A stretch of DNA of 20,580 bases. Origin: a virus. The translations under genes were made by a program, and so were the position numbers. The notes beneath the pieces were generated by a model that saw only the letters and a program-made list of their open reading frames with translations, did no database searches and was not told the origin of the DNA. The DNA lies in IMG/VR virus record IMGVR_UViG_3300010148_000162, positions 1 through 20,580 of that record. The stretch is one strand, 5' to 3'. Shown piece after piece: positions 17,760 to 20,580 of this stretch. Each line of letters starts with the position of its first letter. The stretch's first letter is position 1.

Positions 17760-18461
17760 TTAAAAGAATGAACCTGAGGAATCTAATGAGATGGTGCCGT
17801 GCTTATAAAACTTATTTATAAGTTTTCGATAGTGTTTTTTTAGAACATTAACTACAGAGGTTATATGAGCTGTTTCAACATCTGTCATTTCTCTAATTAA
17901 AATGTAAATGGCTTTTTTATTGAAGTTTTCTATTTCATCTCTCTGTTTCATTAAGTCAATAATTGCATATCCTATTTTTAAATCTCTATCTTTTTTAAAA
18001 ATGATATTTAAGTTATCATCAAAATAGTCTATTATTTCTGTTGTAAATACCTCATAATCGGAGTCTTGAAAAACATCTCTGTCTGCTTTCCTATCTAATA
18101 CTTCCATTTTATCATGCGTTTTAAGTTTTTTATAATTATTATTATTGTGAAGAATTAAATAGTTTTTTGCTACAACTGAAAAATAACTAAATGCTTTTGA
18201 ACCTTTAGTGTGGTCATATTTATGAATATTCATAACCATAAAAGCTACAACTTCATGTTTTACATCATTAAAACCATAATCAAAATATGTAAATTTAAAT
18301 GTATTAATTATGTTTTCAGCTAACTTATCGAAAGCTGCATGTATTCTATGTTGATATATATTATTTCTTTCTACATCATCATTTGATGAATTGTATTCAA
18401 TAATAGCATCTTGAACCTCTTGTCCAAAATATACTTTTCTTTTAGCTTTCTTTTTTGGCAT
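17760..18461 (-). CDS. gp55: gp55-like late-transcription sigma factor
   Basis: At 233 aa it is longer than T4 gp55 (185 aa). Residues about 45-110 look like sigma region 2: AAFDKLAENIINTFKFTYF, DYGFNDVKHEVVAFMVMNIH, then YDHTKGSKAFSYFSVVAKN, which parallels the FDETKYKNPHAYIT stretch of T4 gp55. In T4, gp55 binds host RNA polymerase core and recognises the TATAAATA late promoter, and its C-terminal tail docks on the gp45 sliding clamp. Here the C-terminus (HGTISLDSSGSFF) ends in two phenylalanines and may play the same docking role. Between lies an extra helical segment (about 125-215). The start is fixed by GAGGAG upstream, and the gene overlaps the 92-aa gene by 20 bases. It lies directly before the baseplate genes it would be expected to activate. 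Confidence 0.87.
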   Translation of the reverse strand: MPKKKAKRKVYFGQEVQDAIIEYNSSNDDVERNNIYQHRIHAAFDKLAENIINTFKFTYFDYGFNDVKHEVVAFMVMNIHKYDHTKGSKAFSYFSVVAKNYLILHNNNNYKKLKTHDKMEVLDRKADRDVFQDSDYEVFTTEIIDYFDDNLNIIFKKDRDLKIGYAIIDLMKQRDEIENFNKKAIYILIREMTDVETAHITSVVNVLKKHYRKLINKFYKHGTISLDSSGSFF

Positions 18462-18729: not shown

Positions 18730-19455
18730 CTAATTAAAAAGTTCATCAAACTTAGCTTTCATATTATCTATTTGTTCCTTTGGAACTTCTTTATGTTTGG
18801 TCACACCTTCATCTGAGTGTTCTTCTTCACCTTGTAACCAAGTTTGTTTTTCACATATAGTTGATAACCAATCACCAAAGTGAACTATTGAACCGAGAAC
18901 ATGTCTCGTATCTACATAAGATTTAAAATAAGTTTCAGCTGCTGGGTCGAATAGACCATCAGCACAAATTATAGCTTTATAGACATGTGGATTAATATCA
19001 ATATGATATTTAGATAGTAACCACAGAGCTCTATCATGTACTGTCATGTAGTCTAAATCTTTATTATGAGTGTAATATTCTTTTAGTTTTTTTCTTCTCC
19101 AATCATCAGTTTGGTATTTGTAGTAGGGTTGTGTTCCATCACCAAGTTTACCTAAATCGTGAAACATAGCTGCTAATACCACATCCGAGTCTGAATGTAT
19201 TACCTCTACACCATTTGATTCATATTGTCTTTTAATCATAAGTGAATTTTTAATCACGTGTAAAATGTGGTCAAGATACCCACCTTTAAAACAATTATGA
19301 TAATTAGGTCTACCTGATGCTGGTGCAGTTTTATATTCTGTTTCAAAGTCATTATGTAACTTTAGAATATTTTCTTTTTGTTCACCTTCGAAATGTTCAT
19401 CAATGATTGACATTAATTCATTCCAATTACTATCCATTTGTTCTTGATTTATCAT
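18730..19455 (-). CDS. HD-domain metal-dependent phosphohydrolase
   Basis: This is a 241-aa protein. The HD signature is complete: H63 in GGYLDHILHV, H99-D100 in MFHDLGKLGDG, and D195 in HFGDWLS. The layout NYHNCFKGGYLDHILHV is reminiscent of HD hydrolases acting on nucleic acids or nucleotides, such as YhaM-type exoribonucleases and phage nucleotidases, but the substrate cannot be read from the sequence. The C-terminal 40 residues are charged and helical. The start overlaps the stop of the DruA-like gene by four bases (ATGA), so the two are translated together, and the membrane protein follows nine bases later. It is likely cytosolic, acting on nucleotides, RNA or a signalling nucleotide during infection. 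Confidence 0.88.
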   Translation of the reverse strand: MINQEQMDSNWNELMSIIDEHFEGEQKENILKLHNDFETEYKTAPASGRPNYHNCFKGGYLDHILHVIKNSLMIKRQYESNGVEVIHSDSDVVLAAMFHDLGKLGDGTQPYYKYQTDDWRRKKLKEYYTHNKDLDYMTVHDRALWLLSKYHIDINPHVYKAIICADGLFDPAAETYFKSYVDTRHVLGSIVHFGDWLSTICEKQTWLQGEEEHSDEGVTKHKEVPKEQIDNMKAKFDELFN

Positions 19456-20537
19456 CTTCCAACTTCTCCTAAATATTTTTCTTTAGCTTGTTCATAAGTT
19501 AAACCAAATAACTTATCCCAAAAATGTAATTCTGATTTTACTTTATTATCAGATTTTAGTTTATCAAATCTTTTTTCTGCTTTTGGTTTCCACCATTCAG
19601 ATATTAAATTATTATAATTTACGAAATTCTGCCTTAATTTCAAAGAACTTTTTTTTATATTGTTTTGTAAAAAATCATTTGTGTTTTCATAGAATGGACA
19701 AAAATATACTCCTCTCTTTTTATCACTTTGATAATCTTTTAATTTTAATTCACATTCTTTAAAAATTCTAATATCTAAATTAGACCTTACTTTTCTTTTT
19801 TCACCAAAGTACTCTTCCCATACTCGTATCATTTCTTTTGGAAGTTTTAAAGGAATCTTTCCTGTGGTTTTACCTCTCTTCTTAAATGTTGGCATATTGT
19901 TATATTGTGAACATGTGCCGTATAAAGATGTGGTTGACATACCAACTAATATATCATTATATTTATCTTCCCAAGCTTTTCTAATTACATCTGAAGTTAT
20001 CATTAATGCCATAAGTTTACCACCAAGAAAATTATATCCAAATGGTTGAATCGGTATTATAGCTTGTGCACATGCTACATTGTTTAACTTTTTATTTTTA
20101 AATCTATTGTCTCTTGTCCAACCAATATATTTATCTCTTGCACCTAAATCACCAAAGTCTGAAGTTACTGTTAAAGCTCCAAGATATTTTTCAGTAGTCT
20201 TATCTATAACTAAAAATTTAAGATTACGACCAGGATTAGAAACATTTTTAAAACTTGAAGTAAAACGAATTAAATAACGCCAATCATCAAGTTGTTCTTT
20301 AGTCTCAACTAAAATAACTTTTGGTTTTAAATTTGATATATTTGATTCATTCCATAATTTATTTTTTAATGTATTGATTTTGAATTGTTCACCTATACAA
20401 TTTTGAATTTCAAAATATTTATCATAGAAAACAGCTTCTGCAGAAGATTGTTCTTTTTTCATTTTTATATAATTAATTATCTTCTGTTTTTCAGAATCTA
20501 AATTAAATGTATTGTCGAAAAATTTATCTACCAACAT
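19452..20537 (-). CDS. DUF4338/DruA-like phage protein
   Basis: This is a 361-aa protein. Residues about 100-232 follow the DUF4338 (DruA) pattern: NLKFLVIDKTTEKYLGALTV, ARDKYIGWTRDNRF, NNVACAQAIIPIQPFGYNFL, then a helix (WEDKYNDILVGMSTTSLYG) and GTCSQYNNMPTFKKRGKTTG. DruA is a component of type I Druantia anti-phage systems, and related DUF4338 proteins also occur in phages, where their role is not established. The N-terminal 95 residues and C-terminal 130 are charged and helical, suggesting nucleic-acid contacts. The last 16 residues (LTYEQAKEKYLGEVGR) nearly repeat the end of the upstream gene. The ATG lies inside the last codons of that gene, a 14-base overlap. The family call is by eye; a DNA-binding or modifying role is inference. 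Confidence 0.78.
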   Translation of the reverse strand: MLVDKFFDNTFNLDSEKQKIINYIKMKKEQSSAEAVFYDKYFEIQNCIGEQFKINTLKNKLWNESNISNLKPKVILVETKEQLDDWRYLIRFTSSFKNVSNPGRNLKFLVIDKTTEKYLGALTVTSDFGDLGARDKYIGWTRDNRFKNKKLNNVACAQAIIPIQPFGYNFLGGKLMALMITSDVIRKAWEDKYNDILVGMSTTSLYGTCSQYNNMPTFKKRGKTTGKIPLKLPKEMIRVWEEYFGEKRKVRSNLDIRIFKECELKLKDYQSDKKRGVYFCPFYENTNDFLQNNIKKSSLKLRQNFVNYNNLISEWWKPKAEKRFDKLKSDNKVKSELHFWDKLFGLTYEQAKEKYLGEVGR

Positions 20538-20580
20538 CTTTTAAATATTTCTCTCTAGCTTGTTCCCAAGTCATATTAAA
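20524..20580 (-). CDS. C-terminal end of a gene sharing its tail with the DruA-like neighbour, partial
   Basis: Only the last 18 codons and the stop (TAA at 20526-20524) are inside the window: FNMTWEQAREKYLKDVGR. They align without gaps to the end of the 361-aa protein (FGLTYEQAKEKYLGEVGR), with 13 of 18 positions identical. The gene overlaps the 361-aa start by 14 bases. The upstream gene is therefore probably a paralogue in tandem, or at least carries the same C-terminal tag. The rest lies beyond the right edge. Confidence 0.75.
   Translation of the reverse strand, partial: FNMTWEQAREKYLKDVGR

Follow-up and report, generated by a model that had tools for sequence, protein, structure and literature searches.

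The right edge of the window, the whole 20,580-nt stretch of DNA analyzed here, raises the question of why a marine phage would carry in tandem two genes related to DruA, a defense protein in bacteria. A preliminary description of this DNA had noted that the two genes share a C-terminal tail, explained the match either as a tandem duplication of a DUF4338-type protein or as a short docking tag on two different proteins, and offered DNA modification, counter-defense or superinfection exclusion as possible functions.

The tandem gene pair and its C-terminal tail

The features of the locus, all on the minus strand, are as follows:

18730–19455, minus: HD-domain phosphohydrolase (phrog_28876, metal-dependent phosphohydrolase), with an ATGATAA junction
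19452–20537, minus: DruA-2, a 361-aa DUF4338/DruA-like protein with a predicted GNAT core (PF14236, E 6.6e-24)
19455–19499, minus: C-terminal tail of DruA-2, T347 to R361, ending in VGR
19902–19934, minus: T202-T-S-L-Y-G...S210-Q-Y212 motif of DruA-2
20031–20048, minus: Q164-P-F-G167-Y-N169 loop of DruA-2, with a putative cofactor role
20524–20537, minus: 14-base overlap of the DruA-1 stop with the DruA-2 start
20524–20580, minus: last 18 codons and stop of DruA-1

Only these terminal codons of DruA-1 are visible in the window, the remainder of the gene lying beyond the contig edge; they are identical at 57 of 57 bases to the 3’ end of DruA-1 in the relative L002. The partial frame (20580–20524) ends in FNMTWEQAREKYLKDVGR and the DruA-2 gene (20537–19452) in LTYEQAKEKYLGEVGR, each followed by its stop, so that 11 of the 15 tail positions are identical, and the 14-base overlap noticed earlier lies at 20524–20537 with both genes on the minus strand. 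When ORF tails of these phages were paired at random 300,000 times, five or fewer identities in 15 residues were the outcome in almost every case; a small hump at 7–14 identities was attributed to homologous ORFs among those sampled.

Translation of the upstream gene, a check that the preliminary description had suggested, was carried out in four relatives (L002, L007, L009 and L011), where the full DruA-1 is a protein of 387–394 aa that matches DUF4338 along its length and aligns with DruA-2 end to end at ~39% identity (E ~4e-92). The PF14236 scores are 73–77 bits for these full copies and 85 bits for DruA-2, against a curated cut-off of 27, which bears out the naming of the 361-aa protein as DruA-like. 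The paralogue lies directly upstream of the 361-aa gene in L002, L003, L004, L005, L006, L009, L010 and L011, is two genes away from it in L007, and is present in every relative whose sequence reaches upstream of that gene; the 14-base overlap is repeated in relatives with an adjacent pair, with ATA replacing ATG in L010. On these alignments, DruA-1 and DruA-2 are a tandem duplication. That two unrelated proteins merely carry a common docking tag could be entertained on the window, which shows the upstream gene’s tail only, and now has next to no probability: the full-length relatives refute it, the tail is family-wide, and its motif occurs in none of the 5,664 other ORFs searched in the same loci.

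A search of phage genomes for the tail, also proposed earlier, found it conserved: each of the 81 phage homologues in the alignment has Arg as its last residue, and 75 have a terminal VGR, the usual C-terminus being W/Y-E-x-x-K-x-K-Y-L-x-x-V-G-R and that of a second subfamily IIR, while only 305 of the 5,664 other ORFs end in Arg. In phages of this clade, the start codon of the next gene lies within the tail codons, GATGTTGGTAGATAA at the DruA-1/DruA-2 junction and AGGAGAAGTTGGAAGATGATAA at the DruA-2/HD junction, the latter with a Shine-Dalgarno-like AGGAG and a 4-base overlap of the HD start with the DruA-2 stop (ATGATAA), which suggests translational coupling at these junctions. Distant phages with other neighbors keep the tail, which nucleotide constraint does not explain, and the C-terminal residues therefore probably matter to the protein. 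The VGR-type DruA of phage HTVC008M (L018:7902-9041) lacks ~50 residues in its C-terminal third compared with its relatives.

In a quick tree of 110 proteins (no bootstrap, midpoint root), DruA-1 falls among the single-copy proteins of L022 and L023 (99% SH-aLRT), and DruA-2 forms a long-branched group inside the same clade of 22 rows (88%). Purifying selection acts on both copies (dN/dS 0.05–0.21); both keep the family-wide invariant residues, and the other family residues that are lost differ between them. This combination is consistent with two functional proteins whose roles have diverged. A tandem pair of another kind occurs at L098:1454-3994, where an IIR-type DruA is directly followed by a VGR-type DruA.

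As for the other neighbors named in the preliminary description, the HD hydrolase beside the DruA-like gene was upheld by its PHROG match (E 2e-11). The late sigma factor was not: the 233-aa protein at 17760–18461 (minus strand) matches no Pfam, PHROG or NCBIfam family, nor did blastp align it with gp55 as annotated in two pelagiphages, so that a gp55 identity is not supported by these searches.

Predicted fold and the DruA family

In the confident AlphaFold2 models of DruA-2 (pLDDT 88) and DruA-1 (pLDDT 93), added helices surround a core that, among PDB structures, matches GNATs best. With VIA, the top match of DruA-2 is Mom (8bv8; Z 9.9, 179 residues, rmsd 4.8), followed by GNATs at Z 9.2, which by the rule of the tool is a tie with Mom; the top match of DruA-1 is also Mom 8bv8 (Z 9.9, 166 residues, rmsd 4.0), here clear of the rest (next 8.7). 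Foldseek gave only weak GNAT matches for both models, and a PDB sequence search with the DruA alignment gave no match. DUF4338 has been called a GNAT domain in a published analysis of Dnd systems (PMC10853773). DruA-1 and DruA-2 are thus predicted to have a GNAT fold with extra helical parts, and a fold shared with other GNATs does not fix the substrate. Two conserved motifs stand out. In the Q164-P-x-G167-x-N169 loop, Q164, P165, G167 and N169 are invariant in 81 of 81 homologues, and the loop agrees with the GNAT acyl-CoA motif (R/Q)xxGx(G/A) except at the final position. T202, T203, S210 and Y212 are likewise invariant (81/81), and the stretch from T202 to Y212 is a candidate active-site strand with a tyrosine that may be catalytic.

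Within the defense-system models of PADLOC, only DruA models were matched (DruA1 model, E 1.4e-17); an NCBIfam search of the DruA proteins gave no match. Both phage copies match PF14236 over the DUF4338 region, as DruA of Druantia does, but they differ from it in being phage-encoded and duplicated and in having added N-terminal helices and the conserved VGR C-terminus. They also differ in their surroundings, since the MZB/DUF1998 domain, by which the DruE helicase of Druantia is recognized, was found neither nearby nor in any of 12 related records, of which W01–W03 are complete phage genomes and the others may be partial contigs; control genomes were positive. The DruA-like proteins of phrog_19197 and of Synechococcus phages belong to the same family as the pair (E 3e-29 and 6e-29), but the latter, in cultured Synechococcus phages such as S-SSM7, have IIR ends and are single genes adjoining clamp-loader genes, unlike the tandem VGR pair. 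One Synechococcus phage record with the IIR type is already labeled ‘methylcarbamoylase mom’. The DUF4338 proteins of Mosig EXVC030M and HTVC008M are of the same VGR subfamily (38% and 31% identity to DruA-2, respectively); each phage has one VGR-type copy, downstream of gp46-like genes, unlike the tandem pair, and in Mosig EXVC030M a deformylase lies just upstream of it. Near the HTVC008M DruA, the gene at L018:6334-7338 has a weak beta-glucosyltransferase PHROG match (E 1.4e-4) and is possibly another DNA-modification gene. Cellular relatives numbered zero in one contig scan and eight contigs from metagenome bins in another, the latter probably being binned phage DNA.

Mom genes and the sequence bridge

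Mom is an enzyme of phage Mu that chemically disguises the phage DNA by modifying adenine. The window itself holds no Mom gene, and a direct link was not seen at the sequence level: hhalign gave no signal between the long DruA family and Mom, and the Mom profile PF25680 matched neither DruA-1 nor DruA-2 at E 1. A family of compact DUF4338 proteins bridges the two. In single-pair comparisons of alignments built in this analysis, to which the hhalign E-values apply, an alignment of 24 compact proteins matched the long DruA family at 99.7% (E 2.6e-27) and the Mom set at 96% (E 4.4e-9, 186 columns). Controls with another GNAT family, peptide deformylase, gp46, HD, MazG and RecA, and with reversed Mom or DruA profiles, gave no match. 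The kinship of DruA to Mom, as we read it, rests on this compact bridge together with the predicted fold. Two phages of the tandem clade have a compact DUF4338 gene of 191 aa as a third copy (L105:1700-2272 and L106:3234-3806, both minus strand), starting with TTG and lying between DNA primase-like and cytidylyltransferase-like genes. The TTG start of this compact gene accounts for a TAG that appeared to lie inside a third match to DruA in G006 and G013.

Gene order in relatives points the same way. Between its DruA-1 and DruA-2, L007 has two Mom genes with overlapping ends (PF25680, E 2.8e-38 and 1.9e-50), and L023 has the order Mom-Mom-DruA-DNA polymerase inside a run of replication genes. 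The compact family abuts Mom in ~10 distinct loci, for example in the order DUF4338-DUF4338-Mom-Mom-Mom in L113; adjacency in 4 of 12 compact loci has a rough binomial probability of ~3e-7, given a background of 7 Mom genes in 2.16 Mb of these phages. For the long family, Mom adjacency was seen at two loci only (chance ~0.05). The presence of a long DruA within 6 kb of Mom at 10 of 80 loci was set aside as evidence, since a rough estimate from genome size and copy number predicts a similar figure. Elsewhere, long copies are found among genes of replication and recombination (gp46, a DnaB-like helicase, a RecA-like protein or a clamp loader) or near peptide deformylase, which in part of the long family is a commoner neighbor than Mom. 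Tandem arrays with two to four Mom-family genes were also seen in the marine phage loci L112, L113, L146 and L148.

Relative to Mom, the pair combines likeness and difference: Mom (PF25680, 8bv8) is the top structure match of both models, level with other GNATs in the case of DruA-2, is connected by the sequence bridge and shares operons in relatives, but DruA-1 and DruA-2 are larger, have no Pfam Mom match and show no evident S-x-A-D motif. Since that motif of Mom is not evident, their product may differ from that of Mom.

Proposed function and rival explanations

Kinship to DruA and, via the bridging family, to Mom makes it probable that DruA-1 and DruA-2 are enzymes of DNA modification and not components of a defense system. 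The reading toward which we lean, with somewhat better than even confidence, is that they are duplicated, Mom-related GNAT acyltransferases that modify the phage’s own DNA and shield it from host nucleases. With acyl-CoA as cofactor, they would act around replication, in the manner of Mom, and attach an acyl-derived group to bases of that DNA; the two copies may differ in site or chemistry. Among the three functions offered in the preliminary description, DNA modification is the best supported; superinfection exclusion and a Druantia-like role found no support, the DruE mark being absent from the 12 records searched.

Because deformylase often neighbors part of the family, the main rival is protein acylation, in which the pair would be GNATs acting on proteins, for instance N-termini freed by the phage deformylase, host RNA polymerase or translation factors. 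Most GNATs have amines of proteins or small molecules as substrates, and peptide deformylase is the commonest near-upstream neighbor of the single-copy VGR family (42 loci, redundant copies included; e.g., L051:1468-2178). Some phage GNATs are also known to act on host RNA polymerase (PMC7824862). Yet the deformylase does not adjoin the tandem pair, the IIR type or the Mom-linked copies, and the bridge family is akin to Mom and abuts Mom genes; we consider protein acylation unlikely, though a serious competitor.

The remaining readings take the likeness to Druantia at face value. Phage DruA-like proteins might bind or poison a host Druantia complex by mimicry, as the PADLOC match to the DruA1 model could suggest, but proteins of this family occur widely in pelagic and cyanobacterial T4-like phages, with a conserved core and C-terminus of their own, and their genes usually lie among replication genes; we give mimicry little credence. 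The pair might instead belong to a Druantia-like system on the phage, serving inter-phage competition or superinfection exclusion, a suggestion made earlier that draws on the defensive role of bacterial DruA; with the DruE mark in 0 of 12 records, three complete phages among them, this is very improbable. Over both, we prefer modification of the phage’s own DNA by the duplicated acyltransferases.

No biochemical mechanism for DruA was found in the open-access literature searched, and the homology path from DruA to Mom, together with the shared operons, provides a concrete, testable hypothesis that DruA-type proteins acylate DNA. If this is true, base modifications await discovery in pelagic and cyanobacterial phages that are abundant and in several cases cultured. 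A broader version, about which we are doubtful, is that all DUF4338/DruA proteins, including DruA of Druantia, are Mom-related DNA modifiers and that in marine T4-like phages several different base modifications are written by arrays of DruA and Mom paralogues; L007/L105 has five DruA and Mom paralogue genes in one partial genome.

DruA-like proteins in phages were already known from the Mosig annotation, from the unnamed phrog_19197 and from the Phold paper (PMC12774648), in which no mention of the tandem VGR pair or the Mom link was found. To judge from the open-access literature, in which no paper was found to combine DruA with Mom and acetyltransferase, what appears new is the duplicated pair, the C-terminus common to the family, the bridge to Mom and the operons shared with it. 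DruA-like proteins also occur outside phages: the BFVD structure matches A0A3G4ZXG3, A0A5K0UAJ3 and A0A3G4ZRA1 are uncharacterized giant-virus proteins (Faunusvirus, Yasminevirus and Dasosvirus) with 16–24% identity.
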